Below, piece by piece: positions 4,936 to 33,564 of a DNA stretch of 33,955 nucleotides. Numbering within the stretch: the first letter of the stretch is position 1; every line of letters starts with the position of its first letter. The stretch is taken from NCBI GenBank assembly GCA_017458585.1, contig JAFTAJ010000021.1:1-33955 (forward strand), in the 5' to 3' direction. The stretch is from Bacteroidaceae bacterium (GTDB lineage Bacteria; Bacteroidota; Bacteroidia; Bacteroidales; Bacteroidaceae). Below the pieces are notes generated by a model. The model was not told the origin of the DNA. It made no database searches and saw nothing but the letters and a program-made list of their open reading frames with translations. The position numbers and the translations under genes are program-made.

Positions 4936-5787
4936 ATGCAGAGTATGTTTCATTTCAAGCAATTCAGTGTGCGCCAAGATCGTTGCGCCATGAAGGTAGG
5001 CACCGACGGGGTGCTGCTCGGGGCGTTGGCGTTAGGAATAGAGAATAGAGAACAGAGAATAGAGAATAATGTTCAATCTTCAATGTTCAATGTTCAATCT
5101 TCAATGTTCAACGTTCTCGACATCGGCACTGGTACGGGGGTGGTGGCTCTGATGCTGGCGCAGCGCTATCCTGAGGCTCGGATAGTGGGGGTGGAGATTG
5201 ACCCTGAGGCTGCTGCTCAGGCGGCGGAGAATTTTGCGGCCTCGCCGTGGGGAGACCGCCTCACCGCTGTGTGCGCAGACGCGAGGGAGTTAGGAGTTAG
5301 GAGTGAGGAGTTAGGAGTGAGGAGTGATAAATCTCAATTTTCAATTCCTCTCCCCATAGAGGGGGAGTCGGAGGGGGTCTGTCAATTTTCAATTCTCGTT
5401 TGCAACCCGCCCTACTATGCCCACAGCCCTGCGTCATCGTCTCAGGCTCGCGATGCTGCACGCCGCGCCGACACCCTCACTTTTGAGGAGCTTGCCGATA
5501 CAGCCTCCCGACTGCTGTGCGATGATGGCATCTTTGAGGTTATCATCCCATTCTCTGCAGCCGACGACTTCATCCACACCTGTTGGCTCCACGACCTCCA
5601 TCTGATGCGACGCATCGACATACGCACCAAGCCCGACAAGCCATTCAAGCGCAGCGTGCTCGCTTTTACCAACGCCAACCACAACTCCTCACTCCTCGCT
5701 CCTCACTCCTCACTCCTCACCCTCTTTAATGCCGACGGCACTCCCACTGACGAATACCGCGCAATCACTGCCGATTTTTTATATTGA
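4936..5787 (+). CDS. trmN6: tRNA1(Val) (adenine37-N6)-methyltransferase TrmN6/YfiC-like, with three inserted repeat cassettes
   Basis: This SAM-dependent methyltransferase carries FHFKQFSVRQDRCAMKVGTD at the N terminus, the SAM-binding motif VLDIGTGTGVVAL (about 60-72), an acidic ribose-binding end in GVEIDPEA, and the adenine N6-methylase motif NPPYY at 157-161. This is the TrmN6 (YfiC) layout; members methylate A37 of tRNA1(Val). At 283 residues it is longer than the ~235-250 usual for the family, and the excess lies in three low-complexity insertions: residues 35-59 (between the N-terminal arm and motif I), 118-153 (just before NPPYY) and 250-262 (near the C-terminal strand). All keep the frame and fall between conserved blocks, so activity may be retained. 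The start could be Met4 (4945). It overlaps nothing and is followed after 6 nt by the symporter gene, probably as an operon. Confidence 0.88.
   Translation: MQSMFHFKQFSVRQDRCAMKVGTDGVLLGALALGIENREQRIENNVQSSMFNVQSSMFNVLDIGTGTGVVALMLAQRYPEARIVGVEIDPEAAAQAAENFAASPWGDRLTAVCADARELGVRSEELGVRSDKSQFSIPLPIEGESEGVCQFSILVCNPPYYAHSPASSSQARDAARRADTLTFEELADTASRLLCDDGIFEVIIPFSAADDFIHTCWLHDLHLMRRIDIRTKPDKPFKRSVLAFTNANHNSSLLAPHSSLLTLFNADGTPTDEYRAITADFLY
5038..5112 (+). repeat. In-frame cassette 1 in trmN6 (AGAGAAT and CAATGTT/CAATCTT heptamers)
   Basis: Four AGAGAAT-type heptamers are followed by about five CAATGTT/CAATCTT heptamers, translated as IENREQRIENNVQSSMFN and onward. In the AGAGAAT part the second unit ends in C instead of T, which turns an in-frame TAG into CAG. 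The block separates GALALG from the SAM motif LDIGTGTG. Confidence 0.85.
5286..5395 (+). repeat. In-frame cassette 2 in trmN6 (GGAGTTA/GGAGTGA heptamers plus GC-rich palindrome)
   Basis: Six heptamers occupy 5286-5327. They are followed by AAATCTCAATTTTCAATTCC, a CCCC-ATAGA-GGGG palindrome, GGAGGGGGTCTGTCAA and another CAATTTT copy. The translation is ELGVRSEELGVRSDKSQFS then IPLPIEGESEGVCQFSI. The first half recurs in RuvA and the second in PntB. Confidence 0.88.
5683..5721 (+). repeat. In-frame cassette 3 in trmN6 (CTCCTCA heptamers)
   Basis: This is the GGAGTGA family in opposite orientation, translated as NSSLLAPHSSLLT. This orientation contains no stop codon in any frame. Confidence 0.8.
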
Positions 5788-5793
5788 CAACCA

Positions 5794-6951
5794 ATGAAAA
5801 GAATACCACTCCTTATCAAAGTCATCGCCGCCATATTGGCAGGTGTTTTGCTCGGACATATAATGCCCGATTTCGCTGTGAGGACTATGACCACCCTGTG
5901 CGGCTTGTTTGACCAGCTGCTGCGCTTCCTCATCCCCATCATCATAGTGGGACTGGTTACTCCCGCCATAGCCGAGATAGGCGGCAGGGCGGGGAAGATG
6001 CTTCTCTTCACCGTGGCTCTGGCATATGCGTTCACCGTGGGGAGTGGCCTGTTTGCCTATGCTTTCAGTACGGGGCTGTTTCCTTTTACATTGCCATCGG
6101 GAACCGCTGCGCTAATCGATGCCCAGAGCACGGCGCTGCCCCCTTATTTCACCATCACCATCCCTCCGCTGATGGATGTGATGACAGCTCTTGTCTTCTC
6201 GTTTATGATGGGTCTCGGCATAGCGGTGTTTGGCGGCGCGTCCTTGCAGCGTGGCTTCAGTGAGTTTAAGACTATTGTCAGCAAGACTATCGAGTTTGTC
6301 ATCATCCCCTTGCTGCCGTTTTATATCTTCGGCATTTTTCTCAGCATGACGGCTGAAGGGCAGGTGGCCGGTGTGCTCGAGGCTTTCGTGGCCATCGTGG
6401 CGATAATCTTCGCCATGACCATTCTGCTGCTGCTGTTGCAATATGCGTTGGCCGGCATTGTCACGCGCCGCAACCCTCTCAAGCTGCTGCGCACCATGCT
6501 ACCCGCCTATTTCACTGCCCTCGGCACAGCCTCCTCGGCGGCCACCATACCCGTCACCCTGCGGCAGGCACTCAGGAACCATGTGTCCGAGCCAGTGGCA
6601 GGCTTCGTGATACCCCTGTGCGCAACCATCCATCTCAGCGGCTCGACGCTCAAGATTACCTCCTGCGCCATAGCCTTGATGCTTATGCAGGGCATCGCCT
6701 TTGACTTCCCCACCATGCTTGCCTTCGTGATGATGCTCGGTGTGACAATGGTGGCAGCCCCGGGAGTGCCGGGCGGAGCTATCATGGCCGCCCTCGGAGT
6801 GCTGGAGAGTATGCTTGGCTTCGATTCCACGCAGCAGACTATGATGATAACCCTCTACATTGCCATGGACTCCTTCGGCACCGCCTGCAACGTCACCGGC
6901 GACGGGGCCATCGCCCTCATCGTTGATAGAGTTGGAAAGTTTGAAGTTTAA
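5794..6951 (+). CDS. Dicarboxylate/amino acid:cation symporter (DAACS/SDF family)
   Basis: A 385-residue inner-membrane protein of the GltP/DctA fold. Hallmarks are the serine-rich re-entrant motif ALGTASSAATIP (242-253, HP1), the HP2 region with APGVPGGA (322-329), and MDSFGTACNVTGDGAIALIVD (358-378), the substrate- and Na+-binding helix. The usual eight helices and two hairpins can be followed by eye from KVIAAILAGVLLGHIMP onward. It takes up acidic amino acids or C4-dicarboxylates with Na+ or H+; which cannot be said. The ATG lies 6 nt after the trmN6 stop, suggesting co-transcription. The last codons (GKFEV) run straight into an octamer array, so the extreme C terminus may have been reshaped by the repeat. 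Confidence 0.92.
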   Translation: MKRIPLLIKVIAAILAGVLLGHIMPDFAVRTMTTLCGLFDQLLRFLIPIIIVGLVTPAIAEIGGRAGKMLLFTVALAYAFTVGSGLFAYAFSTGLFPFTLPSGTAALIDAQSTALPPYFTITIPPLMDVMTALVFSFMMGLGIAVFGGASLQRGFSEFKTIVSKTIEFVIIPLLPFYIFGIFLSMTAEGQVAGVLEAFVAIVAIIFAMTILLLLLQYALAGIVTRRNPLKLLRTMLPAYFTALGTASSAATIPVTLRQALRNHVSEPVAGFVIPLCATIHLSGSTLKITSCAIALMLMQGIAFDFPTMLAFVMMLGVTMVAAPGVPGGAIMAALGVLESMLGFDSTQQTMMITLYIAMDSFGTACNVTGDGAIALIVDRVGKFEV

Positions 6952-6955
6952 CTCC

Positions 6956-7023
6956 CAAACTCCCAAACTCCCAAACGACCAAACAACCAAACGACCAAAC
7001 AACTAAACAACCAAACGACCAAA
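6956..7023. repeat. Octamer array (ACTCCCAA then CCAAACGA/CCAAACAA)
   Basis: About eight 8-bp units begin right after the symporter stop. The first are ACTCCCAA-type and the rest CCAAACGA/CCAAACAA. It is the reverse complement of the family at 4670-4714. Only non-coding copies of this 8-bp class are seen here, unlike the 7-bp classes. Confidence 0.8.
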
Positions 7024-7088: not shown

Positions 7089-7102
7089 CAGCCGAAAACG
7101 AA

Positions 7103-8869: not shown

Positions 8870-10408
8870 ATGGACTTTTATCAGATAATAATCAGTAGCG
8901 TGCTTGCAGCAACGGTGTTGCTGGGCATCTCCATGATGTCGCGCGTCAGGACAGCCGTGGCGGGCAATTTCCTGTCGGCCGTAGCCTTGCTGACGGGCAT
9001 CGGCGTCACCCTTCTGTTCGCCGGCATCATCACCGTGTGGACACTCTGGGTGGCCATAGCGACAGGAGCCCTCATCGGCAGCCTCCTTGCGCAGCGCGTC
9101 AAGATGATACAGATGCCCCAGATGGTGGCGCTGTTTAACGGTCTTGGTGGTGGCGCATCAGCTCTGGTGGGCATGATGACGCTCAAAGGGTCAATGTTGA
9201 ATGTTGAATGTTTAATGTTTAATGTGGCCGCTGCCCTTCTGGCCATCGCCGTGGGTATGGTCACCCTTGTGGGCAGCCTCGTGGCCGCCGGCAAGCTCCA
9301 CCGCGTGCTGCCCCAGCGGCCTCTGGTGTGGAAAGGCCACACAGCCGTCACCCTCCTGCTGCTGGCCGTCACCGTGGCAGGCATCGTGTTGGGCACGCTC
9401 AACGCTCAATGGCCCTCCCCCTTTAGGGGGAGTGAGGAGGGGGTCTGTCAACTCTCAATCATCATCGTTGCCGCTGCCTCGTCACTCTTCGGACTCTACT
9501 TCTCAGTCCGTGTGGGCGGTGCCGACATGCCCATCACCATCTCCCTGCTCAACTCCCTGTCGGGCGTGGCGGGCTCCATCGCCGGCATGGCCATCGGCGA
9601 CGTCTTCCTCGTGGCCGTGGGCGGCATCGTCGGAGCCTCCGGCCTGCTGCTGACCCAGATAATGTGCCGCGCCATGAACCGCTCGCTCCTGAGAATCTTG
9701 TTGCCACAGGGAGTCAACAGTTCAACAGTAAACAGTCAACAGTCAACAGTCAACAGTCAATTAGAACAACGTGTTATGGATTTGGAAAAAAGAATACAAG
9801 AATTGGAAGCCATCGTCACCAAGCTCGAAGAGAGAGTGCAGAAGTTGCAAGACAGAGAACAGAGCACTCCCCCTTTAGAGGGAGCGGGGAGGGGATCTGC
9901 TCAATCCTCCTCCTCCGTTCTCTCCTCAGCCAAGGACGTCATCATCGTGCCCGGCTACGGCATGGCCCTGGCACAGGCGCAGCATCAGGTGCGCCAGTTG
10001 GCAGACAAGTTGGAGAGTCGTGGAGCCCGTGTGCGCTTCGCCATTCACCCTGTGGCAGGTCGTATGCCCGGTCATATGAACGTGCTGCTGGCTGAGGCCG
10101 ATGTCGATTATGAGAAGCTCTACGAGATGGATGCCATCAACGACGATTTCGCCAAGACGGATGCCGTGGTGGTGGTAGGAGCCAGCGATGTGCTCAATCC
10201 TGCAGCCCGCAATGCTGAGGGCACCCCCATCTACGGCATGCCCGTGCTCAACGTTGACGAAGCCCCCGAGGTCATCATCTGCAACTACGACCTCAAGCCC
10301 GGCTATGCCGGAGTGGACAACCCCCTCTACACGCGCCCCCACGGCATCCACCTCGAGCTCGGCGACGCCAAGGAAACGCTCACGCGCCTCATCGCACAGA
10401 TAGGGTAG
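8870..10408 (+). CDS. pntB: NAD(P) transhydrogenase beta subunit with four repeat cassettes
   Basis: PntB carries most of the membrane channel (domain II) and the NADP(H)-binding domain III. Channel motifs include MPQMVALFNGLGGGASALVG (82-101), GSLVAAGKL and GADMPITISLLNSLSGVAGS (217-236). Domain III (about 355-512) shows VPGYGMALAQAQ, HPVAGRMPGHMNVLLAEA, VGASDVLNPAA and KPGYAGVDNPLY, all NADP-binding signatures. At 512 residues it exceeds the common ~460. The excess sits at 106-119 (GSMLNVECLMFNV), 178-197 (a GC-rich palindromic cassette), 281-297 (CAACAGT heptamers) and 330-346 (a second palindromic cassette). Residues 298-330 form a heptad-rich coiled coil between the last two. All insertions are in frame and fall in loops or in the flexible domain II-III linker. 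Start is ATG 8870. Confidence 0.93.
   Translation: MDFYQIIISSVLAATVLLGISMMSRVRTAVAGNFLSAVALLTGIGVTLLFAGIITVWTLWVAIATGALIGSLLAQRVKMIQMPQMVALFNGLGGGASALVGMMTLKGSMLNVECLMFNVAAALLAIAVGMVTLVGSLVAAGKLHRVLPQRPLVWKGHTAVTLLLLAVTVAGIVLGTLNAQWPSPFRGSEEGVCQLSIIIVAAASSLFGLYFSVRVGGADMPITISLLNSLSGVAGSIAGMAIGDVFLVAVGGIVGASGLLLTQIMCRAMNRSLLRILLPQGVNSSTVNSQQSTVNSQLEQRVMDLEKRIQELEAIVTKLEERVQKLQDREQSTPPLEGAGRGSAQSSSSVLSSAKDVIIVPGYGMALAQAQHQVRQLADKLESRGARVRFAIHPVAGRMPGHMNVLLAEADVDYEKLYEMDAINDDFAKTDAVVVVGASDVLNPAARNAEGTPIYGMPVLNVDEAPEVIICNYDLKPGYAGVDNPLYTRPHGIHLELGDAKETLTRLIAQIG
9190..9226 (+). repeat. In-frame cassette in pntB (ATGTTGA/ATGTTTA heptamers)
   Basis: Five units read ATG TTG A, AT GTT GA, A TGT TTA and so on. 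The third unit, whose phase would give TGA if it were ATGTTGA, is ATGTTTA instead. Translated as SMLNVECLMFNV. Confidence 0.78.
9412..9462 (+). repeat. In-frame palindromic cassette in pntB, homologous to that in trmN6
   Basis: TCCCCCTTTAGGGGGAG is followed by GAGGAGGGGGTCTGTCAA and a CAATTTT-like end. It is translated SPFRGSEEGVCQLSI against LPIEGESEGVCQFSI in TrmN6: same strand and same frame. Confidence 0.85.
9715..9760 (+). repeat. In-frame CAACAGT heptamer array in pntB
   Basis: Six to seven CAACAGT units (one with an extra T, one AAACAGT) are translated as NSSTVNSQQSTVNSQ. CAACAGT is stop-free in every frame, whereas its reverse complement would give TGA. Confidence 0.85.
9853..9905 (+). 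repeat. Second palindromic cassette in pntB (linker)
   Basis: GAGAACAGAGC followed by ACTCCCCCTTTAGAGGGAG and CGGGGAGGGGATCTGCTCAA, translated REQSTPPLEGAGRGSAQS. It belongs to the same class as 5348-5383 and 9412-9450 but is more diverged. Confidence 0.75.
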
Positions 10409-16456: not shown

Positions 16457-16536
16457 TTCTTAGGTCGCGGTTAATTTTTCTTTGGTCGCTGTTAGTTTTT
16501 CTTAGGTCGCGATTAGTTTTTCTTAGGTCGCGATTT
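16457..16536. repeat. 21-bp direct tandem repeat, 3.8 copies
   Basis: Units start at 16457, 16478, 16499 and 16520 with consensus TTCTTAGGTCGCGATTAGTTT; the last is partial. It lies 55 nt after the barrel gene and before the palindrome-promoter cluster. Its 7 x 3 length keeps frame, but there is no start codon and no other coding sign. Confidence 0.85.
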
Positions 16537-16924: not shown

Positions 16925-18790
16925 ATGAAAAGATTTTTGTTCTTGGCTGCCCTCCTGTGGGGAGCAGTGTGCGCTAATGCGTATTTTGAGGTGGGCGGCC
17001 TTAGGTATGAGGTGACTTCGGAGGAGGCTAAGACCTGCCGTGTCGTAAGGCTGGGATACGGCGTATACTATCAGATGGATGAAGTGTGGATTCCTGACGA
17101 GGTATATCACGAGGGTAATTATTACCGCGTCACCAAAATTGACGACGCTGCTTTCGTGTACTGCATGTGCACTTCAATGAGGCTGCCCAGCGGATTGGAA
17201 GGGCTGGGTTATCAGGCTTGCGCCTTCTGTCAGCGGCTGGAGGAGATTGAGCTGCCCGGTTCGCTGACAGCCATCGGCACAAGGGCGTTTCAGCACTGCC
17301 AAAATCTCAGGTCTGTAAGGATTCCCTACTCCGTGAGCAGGATAGATGACTATGCTTTCCTTGACTGCTGGAAGCTGGAGTCGGTGGATTTGCCCAACGT
17401 GGAGTCTGTAGGCGAGGGCGCGTTCCAGAACTGCAACAGCCTGCGCTCGCTGCATTTCTCATATAACTTCCGCAGCTTCGGGAGGTCGGCGTTCCCATAC
17501 GAGAATATAGAGAGTATCTCTATTGATGGCGGCAATCCGAACTTTGACTGTCGCAACAACTGCAACGGGCTGGTGGAGAGTGCCACCGCCACGATGGTGA
17601 TGGCATGTAAGAACACAAAGATTCCATCGACCGTAACTAGGCTGGGCGACTGGTTGTTCCGAGGGTTTGGCTTTGAGACATACGATGTGCCCAATCATAT
17701 TACGGGGCTTGGAAAGGGAGTCTTTGATTCATGCAAAAATCTGAAGTCGGTGACGATTCCCAGCGGTGTGACCGAGTTGGACGATTACCTGTTTAACGGA
17801 TGCAGCAGTATGACTGAGTTTACTATTCCCGACCAAATCACCCGCTTAGGTGGATGGGTGTTGACGGGCACGGGCATTGAAGAGATTGTCATACCTGCCT
17901 CCACAGTGGATATAGCTAACAAGGCGTTCAGCGAGTGCCCCAAACTAAAGGCGCTGAGAGTGGATGAGGGCAACGCCAAGTATGACAGCCGTGACAACTG
18001 CAACAGCCTGATAGAAACACAGACGGATGCTCTCATTATTCTGGCTACTCCTAATTCGTTTATTCCGGAAGGGGTGAAGGTGCTGACCAGCAATTGCATA
18101 GATCGTATAACACTGGACTACCTCGAGGTGCCGGAGAGCGTGGTTGAGGTTAGGGAAGGCGCTTTTTGCAGAAGCAATATTAAAAAGATTAAAGTGCTTT
18201 GCACCAATGCACAGTGGCACGACTATTATGCCTTCGACCCGATAAACAATAATAGCACGGTTTACTCGGTGCAGCTGCCGGAGGGGATGACGGAAATCAA
18301 CTTCTCGCTGCCGAGTAGTCTGTCGGTTCTGATTATACCCTCGACGGTGGAAAAACTGAGAGCCACTCAGTTCAATCACTTGGTATCGTGTGGTTATTAT
18401 ACAAAAAATCTGCATCACATCGTTTGTCTGGCCAAAACGCCCCCCATGCCCAACTGGGAGTATGGCAATATGAGCGACCCGGGATATTATCCTTTTGACA
18501 ACTACGAAGATTGTACGCTGTATGTGCCCAAGGGCTGTGGAGAGGCATATCGCAACCATCCCTGGGAGTGGTCTAAATTTAAAGAGATAAAGGAATTGAC
18601 GGCTGGTGATGTAAATGCCGACGGCAACCGCAACACGGCCGACGTGGTGGCCATTTACAGCTATATAATCAACGGCACGGAGTCTGGCATCATCGACTAT
18701 TTTGCCGACGTGGACGAAAACCTTAAAGTCAATACTGCCGACGTGGTCAATGTGTATAAATTGATTATTGAAGGCGACGCTGGGCAATAA
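16925..18790 (+). CDS. BspA-like leucine-rich-repeat surface protein with dockerin-like C terminus
   Basis: The 621-residue protein begins MKRFLFLAALLWGAVCANA, a signal peptide. From about residue 70 to 540 it has BspA/TpLRR-type repeats of the form AFxxCxxLxxIxLPxSLxxIGxxAF, for example AFQHCQNLRSVRIPYSVSRI. Such proteins are exported, bind host or bacterial surfaces and are common in oral and gut Bacteroidales. Residues 561-621 are dockerin-like: two calcium loops, DVNADGNRNTAD and DVDENLKVNTAD, each followed by an amphipathic helix. In cellulosomes dockerins bind cohesins; outside them their partner is often unknown. There is no T9SS C-terminal domain. It is paralogous to the next BspA-like gene, with which it shares its last 186 nt almost exactly. 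It has its own promoter. Confidence 0.9.
   Translation: MKRFLFLAALLWGAVCANAYFEVGGLRYEVTSEEAKTCRVVRLGYGVYYQMDEVWIPDEVYHEGNYYRVTKIDDAAFVYCMCTSMRLPSGLEGLGYQACAFCQRLEEIELPGSLTAIGTRAFQHCQNLRSVRIPYSVSRIDDYAFLDCWKLESVDLPNVESVGEGAFQNCNSLRSLHFSYNFRSFGRSAFPYENIESISIDGGNPNFDCRNNCNGLVESATATMVMACKNTKIPSTVTRLGDWLFRGFGFETYDVPNHITGLGKGVFDSCKNLKSVTIPSGVTELDDYLFNGCSSMTEFTIPDQITRLGGWVLTGTGIEEIVIPASTVDIANKAFSECPKLKALRVDEGNAKYDSRDNCNSLIETQTDALIILATPNSFIPEGVKVLTSNCIDRITLDYLEVPESVVEVREGAFCRSNIKKIKVLCTNAQWHDYYAFDPINNNSTVYSVQLPEGMTEINFSLPSSLSVLIIPSTVEKLRATQFNHLVSCGYYTKNLHHIVCLAKTPPMPNWEYGNMSDPGYYPFDNYEDCTLYVPKGCGEAYRNHPWEWSKFKEIKELTAGDVNADGNRNTADVVAIYSYIINGTESGIIDYFADVDENLKVNTADVVNVYKLIIEGDAGQ
18605..18790 (+). repeat. 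Near-identical dockerin-coding segment, copy 1
   Basis: Comparison with 20851-21036 shows four differences in 186 nt, all silent and all in the first ~80 nt; the last ~110 nt through the stop are identical. The rest of the two genes has clearly diverged. Confidence 0.9.
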
Positions 18791-18982
18791 TTTTGCGGTT
18801 TACGCGATTCGGGGACTGAACCGCGACTATGGTATGAAAAGCACGCCATCAACGACTATGTGTATTATACCGTAACTCTCGAAGACGATGTGCCCCTTGA
18901 CGAAAATGCCCCTCTCGCCGAAAGTGTCGATTTCTATGTCAGGATTTCAAAGGTCGGCAGTTTGGGAATTCACAGGCAGTAG
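18791..18982 (+). pseudogene. Open, coding-like relic without start codon
   Basis: Immediately after the BspA stop, in the same frame, 63 codons stay open to TAG 18980-18982. They read like real protein: EKHAINDYVYYTVTLEDDVP, then LDENAPLAESVDFYVRISK. There is no ATG in the frame. It could be the tail of a gene whose 5' part was lost when the dockerin segment was copied in. I do not recognise the family. The remainder of the gap to 19086 is AT-rich and holds a weak promoter and a TCAATTT array. Confidence 0.4.
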
Positions 18983-19003
18983 TCATTTTTTTACCCCAAA
19001 TAT

Positions 19004-19034
19004 TTTATCAGTTCGCAGATATTGATTTCCTTTG
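19004..19034 (+). promoter_or_regulatory. Weak promoter candidate for the second BspA-like gene
   Basis: TTTA (19004-19007), 19 nt, then TTCCTTTG (19027-19034): one mismatch in each element against TTTG and TAnnTTTG, with correct spacing. Confidence 0.3.
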
Positions 19035-19049
19035 CAGAAAAGATTTCGT

Positions 19050-19082
19050 TTTTTCAATTTTTTCATTTTTTCAATTCTTGAA
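19050..19082. repeat. TCAATTTTT/TCATTTTTT array before the second BspA-like gene
   Basis: Three to four degenerate T-rich units of the TCAATTT class end 5 nt before the ATG at 19087. Confidence 0.6.
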
Positions 19083-19086
19083 TTCT

Positions 19087-21084: not shown

Positions 21085-21738
21085 ATGATTGACTATATAA
21101 AGGGCCAGCTGGCGGAGCTTACGCCGGCCAAGGCCGTGATAGAAGCAGCGGGTGTTGGGTATGAACTCAACATCTCGCTGAGTTCGTATGATGAGCTGAG
21201 GAGAGAGACAGACCCACCCCTAACCCCTCCCATGAAGGGAGGGGAACATAAGCTCTATGTTTACGAGGACATCCGCGAAGATGCGTGGGTGCTCTTCGGC
21301 TTTGCCACCAAGGAGGAGCGCGAGCTGTTTCTGCTGCTTATCACCGTGAGCGGGGTGGGTGGCAATACGGCGCGTACCATCCTCTCGGCGTACCCCGCCC
21401 CCGAGCTCGCAGCCATTATCGCCGACGGACGCGATGGCATGCTCAAGCGCGTGAAGGGCATCGGTGGCAAGACGGCGCAGCGCATCATCGTGGAGCTACA
21501 GGACAAGGTAAATGAGTTAGGAATTAGGAGCGAGGAGTTAGGAGTTAGGAGTGAGAAATCTCAACTTTCGAACTCTCGAACTTTCGAACTTTCTAAGGAG
21601 GGCGAGGAGGCCATCGCCGCCCTGCAGATGCTCGGCTTCTCACCGGCTCCCACCAAGAAGGTGGTGAAAGAGCTGCTGGTCAAGGAGCCTGAACTCAAGG
21701 CAGAGCAAATTATCAAGCAGGCACTGAAAGCGTTATAA
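21085..21738 (+). CDS. ruvA: Holliday junction branch migration subunit RuvA with two repeat cassettes
   Basis: RuvA binds four-way junctions as a tetramer and loads the RuvB motor. I start at ATG 21085 (MIDYIKGQLAELTPAKAVIE), the standard RuvA N terminus; the upstream in-frame ATG at 21037 follows the BspA stop directly and adds an untypical tail. Domain I is the OB fold (1-75), domain II contains two helix-hairpin-helix motifs (TVSGVGGNTARTIL and VKGIGGKTAQRII), and domain III is 172-217 (the RuvB-binding three-helix bundle). Two cassettes lie inside: residues 41-56 (ETDPPLTPPMKGGEHK) in a loop of the OB fold and 144-170 in the flexible linker between domains II and III. At 217 residues it is longer than the usual 190-205. 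ruvA upstream of sprA is a familiar Bacteroidetes order. Confidence 0.95.
   Translation: MIDYIKGQLAELTPAKAVIEAAGVGYELNISLSSYDELRRETDPPLTPPMKGGEHKLYVYEDIREDAWVLFGFATKEERELFLLLITVSGVGGNTARTILSAYPAPELAAIIADGRDGMLKRVKGIGGKTAQRIIVELQDKVNELGIRSEELGVRSEKSQLSNSRTFELSKEGEEAIAALQMLGFSPAPTKKVVKELLVKEPELKAEQIIKQALKAL
21205..21252 (+). repeat. Palindromic cassette in ruvA, shared with gmk
   Basis: CCCCTCCC-atgaa-GGGAGGGG forms the core. The translation DPPLTPPMKGGEHK matches THPLTPPMKGGEHK in Gmk (32978-33019, minus strand). The two DNA copies differ at a few bases, including one indel upstream of the core. Confidence 0.92.
21513..21594 (+). repeat. Heptamer cassette in the RuvA linker (GGAGTTA type then CGAACTT type)
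   Basis: Six GGAGTTA/GGAGTGA-type units are followed by GAAATCTCAACTTTCGAAC and further CGAACTT/CGAACTC units. Translated ELGIRSEELGVRSEKSQLS then NSRTFELSK. The first part is homologous to 5286-5345 in trmN6. Confidence 0.9.
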
Positions 21739-21850
21739 ACGAAAACGATAACGAAAACTGACACACCCCTCCGTCGCAAGCGACACCTCCCCTAGCTTAG
21801 GGGAGGAACCGGGGGAGATAACGATAACGAAAACGAAAACGAAAACGAAA
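21739..21850. repeat. ACGAAA arrays flanking a GC-rich palindromic cassette between ruvA and sprA
   Basis: Hexamers ACGAAA/ACGATA stand at 21739-21757 and 21818-21850. Between them lies a palindromic core with CTCCCCTA-GC-TTAGGGGAG and GTCGC-aa-GCGAC. The right-hand array runs directly into the signal-peptide codons of sprA (KYTRRFW). Confidence 0.8.
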
Positions 21851-21886: not shown

Positions 21887-24800
21887 GTGCTGCTGACTGG
21901 TGCCTGGCAGATAGCGCAAGGCACACGCGGTGATATGGCGGTAGGTGTGTATGAGCTGCAGGAGGTGCAGGAAGAACCAATGGTCAATGGTCAATGGTCA
22001 ATGGTCAATGGTCAATCGTCAATGGTCAATGTTCCCATGGACTCCACCCGCTACGGTGTGAAGAAGACAGCGCCTGTCAGCCAGAAGGATATCGACGACA
22101 AGATGCTCGACCTGCGCGATGCAGAGAACGCCAAGACGGAGGCCGTCTATGACGAGTACACCGGCAGCTATAAGCTCGGCACCAAAATTGGCGACAGCTA
22201 CCTCAACGCTCCCTTCCTCATGACTCGCGACGAGTATGACCGCTGGAGCCTGCGCCGCAGCATGGCTGCCTATTTCCACCGCAAGAACCAAGATGCCTTT
22301 GAGGAGGCCGGCAAGAAGAAGTTCGACTTCACCGACATGAAGTTTGACCTCGGCCCCGCCGAGAAGATTTTCGGCCCCGGCGGTGTGCAGGTCAAGGTGC
22401 AGGGGGAGGCGGAGCTTAAGATTGGCGTCAACATGAAGGACATTGACAATCCGTCGCTGCCCATCCGCAACCGTAAGACCACGGGCTTTGACTTCGACGA
22501 GAAAGTCAACGTGAGTCTGCAGGGCAAGATTGGCGACAAGATGGACATGAACCTCAACTACAACACCGAGGCTTCGTTTGACTACGACATGAAGAATCTC
22601 AAGCTGAAGTATGAGGGCAAGGAGGACGAGATTATCAAGCTGGTGGAGGCGGGCAACATCAGTTTCCCGAGCAACAACTCGCTGGTGACCGGTGCCAGCA
22701 GTCTCTTCGGACTGCGTACCGACATGCAGTTTGGCAAACTCAAGCTGCAGCTGGCCGTGAGCCAGAAGAAATCGGTGAGCAAGTCGGTGAGCGCCAGCGG
22801 AGGTAATCAGCTGACCAACTTCGAGATAGCCGGCAACGCCTACGAGTCGAACCGCCACTTCTTCCTCAGTCATTTCTTCCGCGACAACTACGACCGATGG
22901 ATGTCAACGCTGCCCGCCATAGCCAGCGGCATAGAGATAACGCGCATCGAGGTGTGGGTGACCAACAAAAACAATACCACCACCAACACCCGCAACATAG
23001 TGGCGTTTCCCGACCTGGCCGAGTATAGCCATATCAGCAATCCGCAGTGGCATGCCAGCGGCACCAGCAATCCCGCCAACGCCAGCAACGACCTCTATTC
23101 CACCATCAACACCCAATACTCCGATGCCCGACAGATAAGTCAGGTGTATGCCACCATGAGCAGCGCCGGCCTCGAGGGTGGTGTCGATTATGAGAAGGTG
23201 GAGAGTGCCCGACTGCTGAGCAGCAACGAATACACGGTCAACAGGGCGCTGGGCTTCATCTCCCTCAAGACAACGCTGCAGACCGACCAGGTGCTTGCCG
23301 TGGCGTATGAATACACCTATATGGGCACCACCTATCAGGTGGGCGAGTTCTCTACCGACCGCAACGACAACACCACCTGCCTCTACGTGAAGGCCATCAG
23401 AAATGCGGCATGCACCCCCACCATGCCCAACTGGGACCTCATGATGAAGAACGTATATAATCTGGGGGCCACATCGGTGCAGGCCGACAAGTTCAGGCTC
23501 GACATCAAATACCTCAGCGACACCACAGGCGTTTATCTCACCTACCTGCCCGAGGCTCAGTATAAGGACCGCACCCTCCTCTCCCTCCTCAACCTCGACC
23601 GACTCGACAATAAGCAGCAGCCGCACCCCAACGGCTACTTCGACTATGTGGAGGGCTACACGGTGGACCGCAGCTCAGGTCGTGTGTTCTTCCCGTCAGT
23701 GGAGCCATTTGGCAGCTATCTGGCCAAGGTGATAGGCAACGAGGCTGTGAGCGACAAGTATGTGTTCCAAGAGCTCTACGACTCTACTCTGGTGAGAGCC
23801 CGTCAGGTGGTGGAGAAAGACAAGTTTGTGCTTACCGGTCAGTTTAAGGGCTCCGGTGGCAGCAATGTCATCTCGCTCGGCTCTATGAATGTGCCGCGCG
23901 GTTCGGTGAAAGTGACTGCCGGCGGCCAGACGCTGATAGAGAACACCGACTATACCGTCAACTACACGGCTGGCGAGGTGACCATCATCAACCAGAGCAT
24001 TATCGACGCAGGCACTCAGGTCAGCGTGAGCCTTGAGAGCAACGATGGCGAGGCCTTCCAACGCAAGACGATGCTGGGTCTCAACTGGCAGTATGACGTG
24101 TCGAAGGACCTGGTGTTTGGCGGTACCATCATGCACCTCAAGGAGCAGTCGCTGACCACCAAGGTGGCTATGGGCGCCGAGCCGCTCAACAATACCATCT
24201 GGGGCTTGAACGTCAGCTGGAAGAAGCGCAGCCAGTGGCTCACCGACCTCTTCGACAAGCTGCCGCTGCTGCGCTTGGAGCAGCCCTCGCAGATCAACTT
24301 CAGCGCAGAGTTTGCCCAGCTGATTGCGGGCAAGAACGACCAGAGCCAGGCAGGCTCCTCCTACATCGACGATTTTGAGAATACCAAGTCGTCAATCAAT
24401 GTCAATATTCCCAGCGAGTGGGTGATAAGCAGCTGCCCGCTGCGATTTAGCGAGAGCAGCTATATCAACGATGTGCGTTATGGCTACAACCGCGCCCTGT
24501 TGAGTTGGTACAATATCGACCCGCTCTTCACCCGCCGTTCGTCGTCGCTCACCCCGGGCTATATCAAGAGCGATATGGAGCAGCTGAGCAACCACTATGT
24601 GAGGGAGGTGTATCGCACCGAGCTGTTCCCCAACCGCGAGCTGACCTATGGTCAGTCGTCAACGCTCGACATCCTCAACCTGGCCTACTATCCCAACCTG
24701 CGCGGTCCCTACAACCTTAACCCCGACGTTGACAGCAAGGGCCAGCTCAACAATCCTGCACAGCACTGGGGCGGTATGATGCGCTCGCTGGAGACCACCG

Positions 24801-29382: not shown

Positions 29383-29414
29383 CTCCTCACTCCTAACTCC
29401 TCACTCCTCACTCC
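29383..29414. repeat. CTCCTCA heptamer array between sprA and recG
   Basis: Four to five units of CTCCTCA/CTCCTAA begin right after the sprA stop. This is the GGAGTGA/GGAGTTA class in reverse orientation, here untranslated. Confidence 0.8.
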
Positions 29415-29420: not shown

Positions 29421-31550
29421 ATGTACCACCTCCTTGACCAGCGTTTGCAATACCTGCCGGGCGTAGGCCCCAACCGCGCACTCACCCTGGCCTCAGAGCT
29501 TGACATCCACACAGTCAAGGATTTGTTGTTTCATTTCCCTTATCGCTACATCGACCGCTCCACCATCTACACTGTCAGCCAGCTGCCTGAGCTAAGAGCC
29601 GAGGACGGCGGAGTGCCCTATGTGCAGCTCAAGGGCCGCATCAGCGACGTGTCGGAAGAGGGGGTGGGGCGCAGCCATCGCCTGGAGGCACTCTTCTCCG
29701 ACGACACCGGCTCCGTGCGCCTGGTATGGTTTGCGGGCATCAGCTACATAAAGAAGTCGTTGCGCAAGGATGCTGACTATCTGCTGCTGGGCAAGCCCGC
29801 GCTGTTTAACCTCACCTACAGCATCACCCATCCCGAGCTGGAATTAGCAAATGGTCAATCGTCAATGGTCAATGGTCAATCCTTGCGCATGCACCCCGTC
29901 TATCACACCACCGAGCGGATGAAGCGCCAAAACATCAACTCCCGCTTCATCGAGAAGCTCGTAGTCGAGGTGTTCCGCCAGCTGGGCACCGAGCGCGTGG
30001 CCGACACACTGTCCGACGAGATGCGACTGCAATACAACCTCATTCCGCTACACGACGCCTTGCGCCGAGTGCATCTGCCCGCCAATATGCAGGAGGTGCC
30101 CATGGCGCAGTATCGCCTTAAGTTTGAGGAGCTCTTCTTCCTCCAGCTCAGCATACTGTCGTTCGCCCGCAAGCGCAACGGCAAATATCGCGGCTTCATC
30201 TTCAGCAAGGTGGGCGAACTGTTCAGGCGATTCTACAGCGAGGTGCTCCCCTTCCAGCTCACCGATGCCCAGAAGCGTGTGATGCAGGAGATACGCAACG
30301 ACCTCGTCAGCGGTCAGCAGATGAACCGTCTGCTGCAGGGCGACGTGGGCAGCGGCAAGACCGTGGTGGCGCTGATGACCATGCTGCTAGCCATCGACAA
30401 TGGCTTCCAGGCGTGCATCATGGCTCCCACCGAGATACTCGCCGAGCAGCACTATGCCACCATCTCGCGTATGCTCGCCCCGCTGGGCGTCACCATCGAG
30501 CTGCTCACCGGCGTCGTCAAGGGCAAGCGGCGCACCAAGATTCTCACCGACCTCGGCAGCGGCGACCTCAAGGTGATAGTAGGCACCCATGCCCTGCTGG
30601 AGGACAACGTGCAGTTCCGCAACCTCGGATGCGCCATCATCGACGAGCAGCACCGCTTCGGCGTGGAGCAGCGCTCCAAGCTGTGGCGCAAAAACACCAA
30701 TCCCCCCCACATCCTCGTCATGACCGCCACCCCCATCCCTCGCACACTCGCCATGACCGTCTATGGCGACCTCGACGTCAGCATCATCGACCAGCTACCG
30801 CCAGGCCGCAAACCCATCAAGACAGTCCATATCTACGAGCAGCGTCAAGAGCACCTCGAGCAGCTCATACGCCGCGAGGTGGCCGACGGCCATCAGGTCT
30901 ATGTCGTATATCCGTTGATAAAAGAAAGCGAGAAGATGGACCTGCGCGACTTGGAGCAAGGTTTCTCCGAGCTCTGCGACACCTTCCCCGACCTGCGCAT
31001 AGGCAAGCTCCACGGCAAGATGCGCGACCAAGACAAAAATGAGATAATGCAGCTCTTCCTCGACCGTAAGCTCGATATCCTCGTGTCCACCACCGTCATC
31101 GAGGTGGGTGTAGATGTTCCCAACGCCTCCGTCATGGCCATCATCAATGCCGACCGCTTTGGTCTGGCCCAGCTCCATCAGCTCAGGGGCAGGGTAGGGC
31201 GCGGCGCAGAGCAGAGCTGGTGTGTGTTGGTCACCGACTATAAGCTCGCCGACACTACTCGCAAGCGAATGGAGATAATGGTCAGCACCACCGACGGCTT
31301 CGTCATTGCAGAGGAAGACCTGCGCCTGCGCGGCCCCGGCGATATTGAGGGCACCCAGCAGAGCGGCCTATTCCTCAATCTCAAGATGGCCAACCTCGTC
31401 CGCGACAATGCCATTCTGGAGACAGCCCGCGAAGCAGCCATCCATCTGCTCGACAGCGACCCCGAGCGCAGTCATCCCGACAACGCCCCCACATGGCAGC
31501 ATCTCACTCAGCTTCGCGACACCCCCGTCGATTGGTCGTCCATCAGCTGA
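29421..31550 (+). CDS. recG: ATP-dependent DNA helicase RecG with one heptamer cassette
   Basis: RecG reverses stalled replication forks and migrates branched DNA. The 709-residue protein has the N-terminal wedge/OB domain (1-~265), with LPGVGPNRALTLASELDIHT as the entry motif. The helicase core has Walker A GDVGSGKT (307-314), DEQHRFG (motif II, 408-414), TATPIPRTLA (435-444), HGKM (531-534) and the RecG-type RGRVGRG (589-595). Residues 143-154 (ANGQSSMVNGQS) are a CAATGGT heptamer insertion in a loop of the wedge domain, between THPELEL and MHPVYHTTERM. It probably leaves the fold intact. The gene follows sprA by 40 nt and is likely co-transcribed with ruvA-sprA. Confidence 0.96.
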   Translation: MYHLLDQRLQYLPGVGPNRALTLASELDIHTVKDLLFHFPYRYIDRSTIYTVSQLPELRAEDGGVPYVQLKGRISDVSEEGVGRSHRLEALFSDDTGSVRLVWFAGISYIKKSLRKDADYLLLGKPALFNLTYSITHPELELANGQSSMVNGQSLRMHPVYHTTERMKRQNINSRFIEKLVVEVFRQLGTERVADTLSDEMRLQYNLIPLHDALRRVHLPANMQEVPMAQYRLKFEELFFLQLSILSFARKRNGKYRGFIFSKVGELFRRFYSEVLPFQLTDAQKRVMQEIRNDLVSGQQMNRLLQGDVGSGKTVVALMTMLLAIDNGFQACIMAPTEILAEQHYATISRMLAPLGVTIELLTGVVKGKRRTKILTDLGSGDLKVIVGTHALLEDNVQFRNLGCAIIDEQHRFGVEQRSKLWRKNTNPPHILVMTATPIPRTLAMTVYGDLDVSIIDQLPPGRKPIKTVHIYEQRQEHLEQLIRREVADGHQVYVVYPLIKESEKMDLRDLEQGFSELCDTFPDLRIGKLHGKMRDQDKNEIMQLFLDRKLDILVSTTVIEVGVDVPNASVMAIINADRFGLAQLHQLRGRVGRGAEQSWCVLVTDYKLADTTRKRMEIMVSTTDGFVIAEEDLRLRGPGDIEGTQQSGLFLNLKMANLVRDNAILETAREAAIHLLDSDPERSHPDNAPTWQHLTQLRDTPVDWSSIS
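29849..29881 (+). repeat. CAATGGT heptamer array inside recG
   Basis: Nearly five units (AAATGGT, CAATCGT, CAATGGT, CAATGGT, CAATC). The rare CAATCGT variant is also present in the sprA array, pointing to a shared source. Translated NGQSSMVNGQS. Confidence 0.9.
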
Positions 31551-31576
31551 TTTGCACCTTGACGATAACGAATACT

Positions 31577-31604: not shown

Positions 31605-31626
31605 TTAAACAAAAACCAAAAAAACT

Positions 31627-31752
31627 CTTTTCAAGAGCTTAGCACTTTGTGCTGAGGCCGAGGCTATCGCCACGAGTCTGGCCGTAAGTGAACTTCCGTC
31701 ATCCTCCTGTCGAAGCCCCGTCACATCCTGACGGATAAAAGCTCTTGAAAAG
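31627..31752. other. Structured inverted-repeat element upstream of the GxxExxY gene
   Basis: Perfect 14-bp ends CTTTTCAAGAGCTT (31627-31640) and AAGCTCTTGAAAAG (31739-31752) enclose three hairpins: AGCAC-ttt-GTGCT (31641-31653), CGaGGC-tatc-GCCaCG (31659-31674) and CCGTCA...TGACGG (31696-31734). This is a closed multibranch fold. It could be a small RNA, a cis-acting leader or a non-autonomous mobile element. It fills most of the 228-nt gap between recG and the next gene. Confidence 0.6.
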
Positions 31753-31778
31753 CAAAAATAAAAAATATCTTATAAATT

Positions 31779-32222: not shown

Positions 32223-32223
32223 A

Positions 32224-32247
32224 AGCGGAGACCGCAGACTTTTTTTA
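32224..32247 (+). terminator. Weak terminator-like hairpin after the GxxExxY gene
   Basis: GCGG-aga-CCGC followed by AGACTTTTTTT. The stem is only 4 bp, but the T-run and position fit. Confidence 0.4.
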
Positions 32248-32271
32248 GGTTTGAAAAGCCGATTGTTTTTG

Positions 32272-32401
32272 CCCATGACAGTATGTAGGCCTCTATAGAG
32301 GCAAAGATGTGAGGCAGAGGTTTTGTCTATAAGCTCGGTTATAGGAAAAAGCTATGCCTTACATCTGGTAAGGGCTGAAAGCACTTACATACTGGCATGG
32401 G
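32272..32401. mobile_element. MITE-like or structured element with 18-bp inverted ends at the nadD 3' end
   Basis: The ends 32272-32289 (CCCATGACAGTATGTAGG) and 32384-32401 pair over 18 positions with one mismatch and one G-T pair. Inside are GCCTCTATAGAGGC (32289-32302, perfect palindrome), AGATGTGAGGCA with TGCCTTACATCT (12 bp) and CTATAA-gctcgg-TTATAG. No clear target duplication is visible. The right end encodes the last codons and stop of nadD. Confidence 0.55.
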
Positions 32402-32912
32402 GGTTCTTTTCTGTTTTTTTCTTAGCCCTTATCTCCGTCGAGGAGATATTGTACAAGGGCATGTCCAGGAACGTCACATTGGGGGGTAGGGTGGCGACAT
32501 CGATGGGGCTGCCCTTGCGCGGATAAATAATAATAGGTGTAGAGCGCAATATCTCCTCCCCATTCTTCCATTGGTCAAAAATCAGCCAGTTGTCGCCGCC
32601 GATGAGCAGCGAGAACTCCACCTCGGGGTATGCCTCGCGCAGTCGGCGCAGCGTGATGTAAGTGTACGACGGCTTGGGCAGGTGCATCTCAAAGTCGCTC
32701 ACCTTCACCCCTTTCATCCCTTTCACCGCCTGCCTTGCCAGCTGCAGTCGCTTGCGGTCGGCCATCAGGTCAGAGTCCTTCTTGAGCGGGTTGCGCGGGC
32801 TGACCATCAGCCACACCTCGTCCACCAGACCGCTCTCCACCACGCTCTTGGCAATAGCCACATGCCCATAGTGCACAGGGTTAAACGAGCCCCCGAAAAC
32901 TGCTATTCTCAT
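32385..32912 (-). CDS. nadD: Nicotinate-nucleotide adenylyltransferase with altered, short C terminus
   Basis: NadD makes deamido-NAD from nicotinate mononucleotide and ATP. I start at ATG 32912 (MRIAVFGGSFNPVHYGHVAI), the canonical N terminus with the nucleotidyltransferase GGSFNPxHxGH motif; the in-frame ATG at 32942 overlaps the gmk end. Further signatures are MVSPRNPLKK, PSYTYITLRRL, LLIGGDNWLIFDQW and the ATP-binding ISSTEIR. After ISSTEIR most homologues have 20-25 more residues ending in a LVP-type helix. Here only AKKKTEKNPHASM remains, and the last four residues plus stop come from the inverted-repeat element at 32272-32401. It is likely truncated but keeps all catalytic motifs. It begins 4 nt after the gmk stop, in one operon. 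Confidence 0.92.
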   Translation of the reverse strand: MRIAVFGGSFNPVHYGHVAIAKSVVESGLVDEVWLMVSPRNPLKKDSDLMADRKRLQLARQAVKGMKGVKVSDFEMHLPKPSYTYITLRRLREAYPEVEFSLLIGGDNWLIFDQWKNGEEILRSTPIIIYPRKGSPIDVATLPPNVTFLDMPLYNISSTEIRAKKKTEKNPHASM

Positions 32913-32916
32913 TGCT

Positions 32917-33564
32917 TTAAGCGAATAAATCAAACAAATCAACTACCCAGTTCCAAATCTTTTTGAGAAGGGAGGGTTTATGCTCCCCTCCCTTCATGGG
33001 AGGGGTAAGGGGGTGGGTCTTCTTCTTTACCGTCTCCACCACCTCCTGCTGCGCCGTCTCGAGGTCGTCGTTGGTAATCACCACGTCAAACTGCGGAGCG
33101 AAGGTCAGCTCATAGGCAGCCTTGTCGATGCGCTGCTGTATCTTTTCGGGGCTGTCGGTGCCGCGCTTCTCCAGGCGTCGGCGCAGCTCCTCTATCGAGG
33201 GCGGCTGAATGAATATCAGCAGCGCCTTGTCGCCGTATATGCGCTTCACGCTGAGGCCGCCCTTCACATCGACGTCGAGCACCACGTTCTCGCCCTTAGC
33301 CAGCCGACCGTCAATCTCCGACTTCAGCGTGCCGTAGAATGTGCCGGCATACACCTCCTCATACTCTACGAAGGCATCCTCCGCTATCTTCTGGCGAAAC
33401 TCCTCCTCGCTCATGAAGTGATACTCCACGCCGTCCTTCTCCCCGCCGCGCGGTGCGCGCGAGGTGGCGCTGACGGAGAACGTCAGGTCGGGCATCTGAC
33501 TTATTAGATGATTAATCAATGTGGACTTGCCACTGCCGCTGGGGGCGGAAAAAACAAACAACAT
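32917..33564 (-). CDS. gmk: Guanylate kinase with inserted cassette and extended tail
   Basis: Phosphorylates GMP to GDP with ATP. The P-loop is APSGSGKST (7-15). The GMP-binding region has SVSATSRAPRGGEKDGVEYHF (30-50) and FVEYEEVYAGTFYGT (65-79). VVLDVDVKGG and IFIQPPSIEELRRRL follow, as in all guanylate kinases. The normal protein would end near 180 (VVETVK). Here residues 183-196 (THPLTPPMKGGEHK) are a palindromic cassette shared with RuvA, followed by 19 unusual residues (PSLLKKIWNWVVDLFDLFA) that could form an amphipathic helix. The tail is probably dispensable for catalysis. Start ATG 33564 has a good promoter; nadD follows. Confidence 0.96.
   Translation of the reverse strand: MLFVFSAPSGSGKSTLINHLISQMPDLTFSVSATSRAPRGGEKDGVEYHFMSEEEFRQKIAEDAFVEYEEVYAGTFYGTLKSEIDGRLAKGENVVLDVDVKGGLSVKRIYGDKALLIFIQPPSIEELRRRLEKRGTDSPEKIQQRIDKAAYELTFAPQFDVVITNDDLETAQQEVVETVKKKTHPLTPPMKGGEHKPSLLKKIWNWVVDLFDLFA
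32978..33019 (-). repeat. Palindromic cassette in gmk, shared with ruvA
   Basis: Read on the minus strand it matches 21211-21252 with a few substitutions and one extra base before the core CCCCTCCC-atgaa-GGGAGGGG. It is translated in the same frame as in RuvA. Confidence 0.92.

Follow-up and report, generated by a model that had tools for sequence, protein, structure and literature searches.

Probable lineage-specific heptanucleotide repeats and separate short palindromes in housekeeping genes of a Bacteroidaceae genome

We analyzed a 33,955-bp stretch of Bacteroidaceae DNA (hereafter the window; contig JAFTAJ010000021.1 of assembly GCA_017458585.1) in which tandem 7-bp repeats and GC-rich palindromes lie as in-frame cassettes inside housekeeping genes. 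The window is contig 10 of the genome that we call G000 (2,396,073 bases in 47 contigs, 92.5 % complete). We consider it probable that the cassettes are lineage-specific heptanucleotide simple-sequence repeats, accompanied by separate palindromes resembling repetitive extragenic palindromic (REP) elements, in a rumen lineage of the Bacteroidaceae/Prevotellaceae, and that short seeds expand there in 7-bp steps under a translation filter. A preliminary description of the window had proposed a dispersed element or, alternatively, a repair or slippage process that seeds coding DNA. The second proposal fits best, given a 42-bp gain in sprA, two arrays that are 7 bp longer in one relative than in another, and repertoires of repeat units that are specific to each lineage.

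Period-7 arrays in the genome sample

Tandem arrays with a period of at most 12 bp were collected without redundancy by Tandem Repeats Finder (TRF) in the window and 20 further stretches of G000 (406,597 bases); the stretches were set before their sequence was seen, and 16 of the 20 contigs were chosen since earlier searches had shown hits on them. The sample held 176 arrays, of which 96 had period 7, 28 period 8, 16 period 9 and 5 period 6, while three order-1 Markov shuffles of the window and sample contained no period-7 array at all. By extrapolation, the whole genome would hold ~550 arrays. Open reading frames (ORFs) were called by length only, from 90 aa upward, and covered 91 % of the sample. 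Fifty of the period-7 arrays lay wholly in ORFs, 19 crossed an ORF edge and 27 were intergenic, and the placements outside ORFs (34 tandem, 7 convergent, 5 divergent) looked near random. The heptamers first noticed in the window are therefore found well beyond it, inside genes as well as between them.

The density of period-7 arrays was 23.1 per 100 kb in G000, 15.7 in G016, 16.2 in loci L043-L047, 8.1 in G013 and 7.6 in G007. G008, a genome of the same genus (99 % complete, 8 contigs), had 1.8 per 100 kb (2 arrays in 113,570 bases). Across 74 loci of other Bacteroidales we found 3.8 period-7 arrays per 100 kb as compared to 0.7 of period 8, built of other units (for example at L098, L099, L093 and L119); since period 7 exceeds period 8 there too, the 7-bp period is not special to the G000 lineage. 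Three consecutive GGAGTNA units were present in 6 of 41 genomes, with 135 overlapping matches in G000, 129 in G007 and 89 in G016; the remaining three had no more than 4 each. Among 295 genomes of the order, 19 had four TTCAAT hexamers spaced 7 bp apart, and G000 was one of them. In a viral collection, 42 stretches (L122-L163) carried an exact triple GGAGTNA plus a GGAGT run.

Cassettes in the window genes

The cassettes that the preliminary description had placed in trmN6 (three), pntB (four), ruvA (two), sprA, recG and gmk (one each) were all recovered by TRF and direct reading. They keep the frame, the host frames in the window are all open, and unrelated proteins gain related predicted peptides, including ELGVRSEELGVR and NGQSSMVNGQ as read from the DNA. 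Pfam confirmed pntB, ruvA, recG, gmk and the N-terminal part of sprA; for trmN6 it gave a methyltransferase domain only, and the NCBIfam TrmN model scored below its cut-off. We aligned same-genus orthologues of trmN6 (13 of the 17 matching genomes), pntB (4 of 4), ruvA (13 of 13) and gmk (13 of 14), and compared sprA and recG with six relatives found through RecG (L042-L047); L050, L052 and L061, where the gene is absent, were ignored in the ruvA and sprA alignments. The named relatives nearest by RecG were mostly rumen metagenome-assembled genomes (MAGs), namely yak rumen RGIG10237 (L042, 90 %), water-buffalo rumen RGIG8180 (84 %), RUG13363 and RUG13781 (83 %) and HAN087 (79 %). By shared sequence L042 is G013, L044 is G007 and L047 is G016, and each was counted once as a genome. 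Each close comparison pairs MAGs from different species, and the array lengths may be limited by the assembly. The aligned relatives lacked the window segments or carried different ones, which indicates that the segments are lineage-specific, as had been expected from the window alone.

In trmN6, cassette 1 (5036..5116; on the + strand, as are all cassettes except that of gmk) consists of GAATAGA-class and then TTCAATN-class (AATGTTC) heptamers found by TRF, with the predicted peptide ENREQRIENNVQSSMFNVQSSMFNV. This region is 7-21 residues longer than in the 13 aligned orthologues, and G013 has its own QESRVASQES stretch at the site. Cassette 2 (5286..5382; TRF and palindrome search) combines GGAGTKA heptamers (ELGVRSEELGVRSD), a AAATCTCAA link and a CTCCCC/GGGGGAG palindrome, and it sits between the aligned stretches 49-119 and 150-273 of the best PDB match, 7wm6_A. 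Cassette 3 (5684..5724; TRF and alignment) is made of ACTCCTC heptamers (SSLLAPHSSLLTL), which represent the GGAGTKA class on the complementary strand.

The four pntB cassettes comprise AATGTTG heptamers (9193..9225; TRF and alignment), an ACGCTCA doublet with the palindrome CTCCCCCTTTAGGGGGAG and the tail GGGGGTCTGTC (9395..9455; alignment), AGTCAAC heptamers in the linker that precedes the C-terminal domain (9712..9760; TRF) and, in the same linker, the imperfect palindrome CTCCCCCTTTAGAGGGAG with its tail (9865..9899). The PDB match 4o9u_B aligned with PntB residues 11-278 and 345-509, and cassettes 3 and 4 fall in the linker between them. The first ruvA cassette (21190..21245) is the palindrome GACCCACCCCTAACCCCTCCCATGAAGGGAGGGG with the predicted peptide TDPPLTPPMKGGE and corresponds to a gap of 10 against the RuvA structure 1bdx_A, while the second (21514..21593; TRF) contains GGAGTNA heptamers, the AAATCTCAA link and AACTTTCG octamers and precedes the RuvA_C match, which starts at residue 174.

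The sprA cassette (21978..22031), built of CAATGGT heptamers (MVNGQWSMVNGQSSMVN), precedes the SprA_N match. That of recG (29850..29880; alignment) consists of AATGGTC heptamers, which encode NGQSSMVNGQ at residues 144-154. In an AlphaFold model of RecG (41 sequences, mean predicted local distance difference test, pLDDT, of 82.3), pLDDT was <50 at residues 146-154, between strands 139-142 and 157-160. The gmk cassette (32985..33020, - strand) is the palindrome CCCCTCCCTTCATGGGAGGGG with the tail GGGGTGGGTC and lies in the C-terminal tail of the protein (THPLTPPMKGGE) at residues ~182-194; the Pfam Guanylate_kin match stops at 181 and the best PDB match at 177, with two other PDB alignments extending to 192. 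Gmk of G000 has 10 extra residues at the cassette relative to G013 and G016 (87 % identical).

Untranslated copies between genes, which had also been reported, were present at two places. The palindrome between ruvA and sprA (21760..21815) was conserved in the nearest relative, L042, by alignment. The GGAGTKA-class array between sprA and recG (29383..29414; TRF) was without a counterpart in L042, whose spacer differs and is longer.

Host genes outside the window

Pfam was run on 39 ORFs that carry a cassette and lie outside the window. Of these, 22 came from the sample array list, chiefly the longer ORFs, and 17 from the GGAGTKA set; 33 of the 39 matched a family at 1e-5, and protein names follow the Pfam domain. 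The array of a SpoT-like protein (residues 598-626) lay between the TGS (423-482) and ACT (701-776) domains. Similar positions between domain matches were seen in MetH-like (array 324-337, matches 12-318 and 383-621) and UvrA-like (244-255, matches 132-242 and 298-364) proteins and in an aspartokinase-homoserine dehydrogenase (296-306, matches 2-277 and 405-465). An HU/SPOR protein carried its array at ~227-261, before SPOR (261-333), and an ABC protein at 234-243, just ahead of its second ABC domain (263-405). Further hosts were FtsW/RodA, U32, a LysS-like synthetase (at the C-terminal end), a RadA-like ATPase and a TolC-like OEP protein, and outer-membrane and leucine-rich-repeat (LRR) proteins were also among them.

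The RecB-like helicase of G000 (best NCBIfam model NF010485, below cut-off) carries about six ELGVRSE repeats soon after TFTNKATAEMKQR and about nine after GDVKQSIYRWRNGDYRIM. Its frame has 1178 residues, as compared to 1080 in G013, 1081 in G016 and 1075 in G007, all without both repeats; the repeat was also absent in G001 and G012, and a G009 fragment was without the second one. The two arrays (L271:1385-1517 and 2604-2810) have a 79-bp block in common, and the 21-bp repeat GGAGTTGGGAGTTAGGAGTGA had 8 copies in the gene and none elsewhere in the 593,232 bases of G000 examined. These repeats suggest local array-to-array copying within the gene.

Turnover of arrays between relatives

Relative to L042, G000 was longer by 6 bp in recG, 12 bp at the second ruvA site and 42 bp in sprA. 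In sprA, L042 has one CCAATGGTCA where G000 has the array, and the difference is exactly 42 bp; at this site L044 and L047 each have a long GGAGTGA array, and L043 and L045 are array-free. The first ruvA loop reads TDPPLTPPMKGGE in G000, APLQGEAPSLEGRAGER in G007 and G016 and, encoded by heptamers, VKSQESRVESQES in G013; G001 has an intermediate loop and nine other genomes a short one (14 of 19 genomes matched ruvA). At the second ruvA site, L042/G013 has a CAATGGT array. The alignments of ruvA, sprA and trmN6 show the same putative loop filled with different cassettes in different species.

For 18 of the 96 arrays of G000, both flanking sequences were present in the sequence examined from G013 (40 contigs with 432,280 bases, together with L042), and none was identical there. 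Among these sites we found two shorter related runs (L014:3578 and L011:3782), the single unit in sprA and the different array at the second ruvA site. Ten of the 18 were in called ORFs, with length differences of 6, 12, 24, 24, 42, 42, -1, -2, 14 and 20. Between G007 and G016, 10 of 32 and 12 of 94 arrays were comparable. In two cases the lengths are exactly 7 bp apart; the first of these arrays is in no long frame, and the second comes close to the end of an open frame of 161 aa. One array compared in both directions was equal in length, and the rest were replacements or larger indels. Length change by whole units, as expected of a simple repeat, was observed in few cases, all between species, and most comparable sites were larger replacements.

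Two larger differences were also noted. The sprA gene of G016/L047 is without 198 bp beside the array (L261 ~9870-10216 compared with L260), apparently with the signal-peptide region included; this gap is apparently a repeat-linked deletion or a misassembly. Elsewhere, ~190 bp present in G016 and absent from G007 (L260:8759-8959) consist of heptamers, a GC-rich palindromic block and heptamers, and the sprA-recG spacer of L042 holds a block resembling it.

Unit repertoire and translation filter

The 96 arrays fell into 39 unit necklaces, while random genomic 7-mers gave 91.6. The repertoire of G000 differed from those of G013, G007 and G016, each to a degree reached in 0 of 2000 label shuffles (arrays taken as independent), and the repertoires of G007 and G016 differed mildly from each other (89 of 2000). 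Units of the form YYRRRRR, a purine bias, made up 35 of the 96 as compared to 9.5 expected. Six of 51 arrays from other Bacteroidales used a G000 necklace (random mean 2.0, maximum 8). A fixed polymerase preference as the sole cause of the repertoire is out, since the repertoires of sister species differ; given the purine bias, such a preference may contribute.

Location depended on the stop content of the unit. ORFs of at least 150 aa contained 8 of 11 arrays whose unit is stop-free on both strands, 33 of 63 stop-free on one strand and 5 of 22 stop-free on neither (Fisher p 0.008, first two classes pooled against the last). For the one-strand units in ORFs, the open strand was the sense strand in 29 of 33. 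In rough arithmetic, if insertion were blind, 91 % of the DNA coding, one frame in three tolerated and stops excluded, ORFs would keep 77 %, 63 % and 0 % of the three classes; the observed shares were 73 %, 52 % and 23 %, with mixed units accounting for the arrays of the third class. Arrays inside ORFs were under-represented (50 of 96 as compared to 88 expected from the 91 % coverage), and 22 of the 96 units were stopped on both strands as compared to 7.5 % of genomic 7-mers. The units look unshaped for coding.

We found 48 perfect GGAGTKA arrays, 25 of them in frames of at least 180 aa. The 18 arrays read in sense (14 ORFs) all encode ELGVRSE, for which successive units must supply TTA, GTK and GAG, a 21-bp period, and the seven read in antisense encode SLLTPHS/NS-type peptides. 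Of the other 23, 13 had no open frame and 10 were pure GGAGTTA. Since this order is required of any open GGAGTKA array, ELGVRSE shows a filter and not a preference. It also follows that one-unit 7-bp slippage cannot make a sense-open GGAGTKA array, for which mixed units or 21-bp steps are needed; the near-pure 21-bp repeats in the RecB-like helicase suggest such steps.

Palindromes

Of the 23 palindromes in the G000 sample, 13 were inside called ORFs, 8 lay between genes and 2 fell on edges. Window genes account for 4 of the 13; another 6 are in frames, called by length alone, that stay open for at least 260 aa, and the remaining 3 are in possibly spurious frames of 114-117 aa. The palindromes are stem-loops of 17-26 bp with CTCCCC-type stems and G-rich tails (GGGGGTGTGTC, GGGGGTCTT or GGGGTGGGTC). 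The CTCCCCCTNNNNTAGGGGGAG family had 37 sites in G000, 4 in G009 and 0 in 17 other genomes of the genus. Five of the 23 had a heptamer array no more than 50 bp away (0.9 on average at random; 5 reached in 1 of 500 placements) and eight had one within 200 bp (2.5 at random), the random placements ignoring coding and intergenic context. The best reading is that the palindromes are a separate, species-restricted REP-like family that is sometimes adjacent to heptamers. At L016:4737-4948 we noted a second palindrome family, four tandem intergenic 65-bp units with the perfect palindrome CGGGGGTTRTACCCCCG.

Movement of the palindromes by a REP-associated tyrosine transposase (RAYT) was considered and rejected. 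A single Y1 ORF was detected in G000, IS200/IS605-like and below the NCBIfam cut-off; it was not flanked by palindromes, two of which lie 1.4-2 kb to one side, and at 92.5 % completeness a gene may be missed. The Y1 transposase search of G007 gave no match.

Proposed mechanism and its weak points

We propose that short seeds of a few favored heptamers pre-exist or spread, for example by short template switches, and that a seed would then grow in situ by strand slippage in 7-bp steps, such as those seen between species. Growth would ignore gene borders, and within ORFs only in-frame, stop-free outcomes would survive selection, in keeping with the observed pattern; a unit open on one strand would be tolerated in that orientation, and sense GGAGTKA would need its TTA/GTK/GAG order at the 21-bp period. 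The added residues would be accepted mostly in loops, linkers and tails, as the positions in five window genes indicate by structure, PDB alignment or domain end. Arrays would finally decay and be replaced, which may explain why one loop carries different cassettes across species in ruvA, sprA and trmN6. More tentatively, such a seed-and-expand process could spread species-specific heptamers genome-wide and continually make in-frame loops in core enzymes outside any transposon, with unit dialects peculiar to each species (ELGVRSE, NGQWSMV, SLLTPHS) and loops that are repeatedly refilled.

Several observations weigh against this explanation. The claim that cassettes lie in loops, linkers or tails held for most of those in the window genes, but genome-wide many arrays lie within one domain match and not between domains, as in CydA-like (array 366-377, match 14-515), RsmF N-domain (61-72, 32-106) and DegT (175-187, 25-374) proteins, LpxB (181 and 246, 8-359), AroA (83 and 411, 36-465) and the substrate-binding domain of a SpoU methylase (79, 31-131). 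The counts behind the translation filter are to some extent circular, since ORFs by definition exclude any array that has stops in all frames. Four of the ten in-ORF arrays comparable with G013 differ by non-multiples of three (-1, -2, 14 and 20). The -1 and -2 belong to neighboring arrays in one real gene with HU and SPOR domains, the 20 is seemingly at a start codon and the 14 is in a family-less ORF, the gaps being bounded by local alignments. The window cassettes had been described as insertions; gmk and sprA are indeed lengthened, but several cassettes replace an existing loop with no net insertion, so plain slippage is not a one-step route to them. For sprA, we infer the direction of change, G000 gain or L042 loss, from the array-free L043 and L045. 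Finally, MutS matched 19 of 19 genomes of the genus (above cut-off in 17) and SbcD 18 of 19, in both cases with G000 included; since these two, the only repair genes searched, are present in G000, their loss is not a simple cause of the expansion.

The spread of seeds is likewise something that we infer, for arrays on different stretches had unit order in common no more often than shuffles. In this test, from which pairs on the same stretch were left out, GGAGTNA arrays had blocks of at least 6 units in common in 5 of 1572 pairs (shuffles mean 2.0, maximum 7) and of at least 5 units in 28 (mean 17.3, maximum 31), and TCAATNN arrays had none of at least 5. Copying of whole arrays between genes was rejected on this result, even though exact blocks of 56, 50 and 47 bp occur across contigs; the RecB-like helicase, within its one gene, may be an exception, as its repeats suggest.

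Alternative explanations

The dispersed element of the preliminary description would be a mobile cassette akin to a miniature inverted-repeat transposable element (MITE) or a Rickettsia palindromic element (RPE), with heptamers as its ends and a palindrome as its core, moved by a transposase and surviving in ORFs when in frame. We regard this as unlikely, though several results are in its favor. The palindromes form near-identical dispersed families, more than half of the sampled copies (13 of 23) are inside called ORFs, their proximity to arrays exceeds random, the ~190-bp G016 block has the expected build, and the exact blocks mentioned above recur on different contigs. However, heptamers and palindromes do not behave as one unit: the 96 arrays far outnumber the 23 palindromes and occur without them, and 18 of the 23 palindromes have no array within 50 bp, the five that do being a minority. 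G007 and G016 have many arrays and zero copies of the CTCCCCCTNNNNTAGGGGGAG family, from which the arrays of G013 are also free. Unit order was shared no more than in shuffles, and Y1, the sole transposase type searched, gave in G000 only the weak, unflanked match and in G007 none.

Retention of the arrays for function, either as regulatory or protein-binding repeats or as contingency loci frame-shifted by one heptamer, appears improbable. Heptamers have been proposed as translational sites in another bacterium (PMC4679880), and since 7 is not a multiple of 3, one unit would turn a gene off. On the other hand, many hosts are housekeeping genes and not surface antigens, although outer-membrane and LRR proteins are included, and the deficit of arrays in ORFs, their near-random orientation outside ORFs and the failure of any of the 18 G013-comparable arrays to be the same all speak against it. 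Ordinary fast-evolving loops or a MAG assembly artefact are very improbable: the closest genomes compared are MAGs and repeats are hard to assemble, but the shuffles gave zero period-7 arrays, in-frame arrays occur in four separately assembled genomes (G000, G007, G013 and G016), and G008 of the same genus has less than a tenth of the G000 density.

Comparison with known systems

We compared the G000 cassettes with five known systems as given in the cited papers. Heptanucleotide long simple sequence repeats (LSSR; Mrazek et al. 2007 cited in PMC4679880) include TAACTGA arrays in Beggiatoaceae, Cyanobacteria and five Bacteroidetes. They resemble the G000 arrays in being tandem heptamers at many loci with a sporadic spread, mostly 7-nt length changes and some copies in ORFs (PMC4679880). 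G000 likewise has tandem runs beyond chance with the heptamer as the commonest longer unit (96 of 176, 0 in shuffles), but about half of its sampled arrays are in ORFs, many of them mid-enzyme, and there are many unit classes and not one; TAACTGA was absent from the 39 necklaces of the sample. The GGGAATC and GGGGAYT heptamers of Xanthomonas and Nostoc (PMC4692102) also form dispersed intergenic and intragenic arrays; these are G-quadruplex formers enriched in non-coding DNA with four preferred units, whereas the common G000 units are without a G-tract of at least 3. In the Nostoc trnL intron P6b (PMC4476775), one structural site has received different heptamer classes in repeated independent shifts, as have the G000 loops, although P6b is one RNA stem-loop and G000 has many protein loops.

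Among palindromes, RPEs (Ogata 2000, 2002 cited in PMC10969869) are in-frame repeats that give related peptides to unrelated proteins. The G000 cassettes likewise give related predicted peptides to unrelated proteins, and for the palindromes among them in-frame insertion into many ORFs is possible. RPEs are palindromes of ~150 bp (PMC10969869), whereas the tailed G000 cores measure ~17-26 bp and heptamer arrays make up most of the cassettes; no palindrome of ~100-150 bp coding a conserved peptide was seen among the G000 stem-loops. GTAG- and CGTC-tagged REPs (PMC3733652) are short palindromes in uvrA, recB-type, tRNA-enzyme and repair genes, and a recB site has been reused in two Xanthomonas species (PMC3733652). 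In contrast, the G000 palindromes have G-rich tails, the UvrA-like and RecB-like genes carry heptamer arrays, and no GTAG or CGTC tag was found by eye in the 23 palindrome copies.

The preliminary description knew of no named counterpart, which holds only in part. Heptanucleotide repeats (PMC4679880, PMC4692102) and in-gene palindromes (PMC3733652) are each known alone, but at the level of titles and abstracts we found no account of in-frame heptamer cassettes in Bacteroidales, of heptamer arrays this dense in housekeeping ORFs or of heptamer-palindrome cassettes in this lineage. What we did not find described is the density in housekeeping ORFs together with the combination.

If the proposed explanation is true, G000 is a natural experiment in repeat DNA becoming protein sequence. 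The genome would amount to an inventory of the insertions that core proteins tolerate (RuvA, RecG and the SpoT-, UvrA-, RecB- and LysS-like proteins, among others), with sister species as controls, from which one could measure loop tolerance in core enzymes, the route from repeat to protein and the cause of the 7-nt period. It would also be a warning that heptapeptides such as ELGVRSE in rumen Bacteroidales may be in-frame repeat DNA and not a protein domain.

Other features of the window

Two intergenic 8-bp arrays occur at 4668-4711 and 6950-7023. At 31611-31775 we noted an intergenic inverted repeat, TTTTCAAGAGCTT...AGCTCTTGAAAA, with arms ~110 bp apart and no second copy in the G000 stretches examined; it is possibly a small MITE-like or structured element. 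A pair of 24-bp direct repeats with GAAAAGTATACCA is present at 33821-33866 and, with the same spacing, at L291:3744-3780 near the end of contig 25. A 21-bp repeat, TTCTTAGGTCGCGGTTAGTTT, is present in 3.6 copies at 16457-16532, downstream of a large outer-membrane receptor-like ORF. Two adjacent LRR-like secreted proteins (16925-21036) have a near-identical C-terminal segment of ~50 residues, which we take to be dockerin-like.

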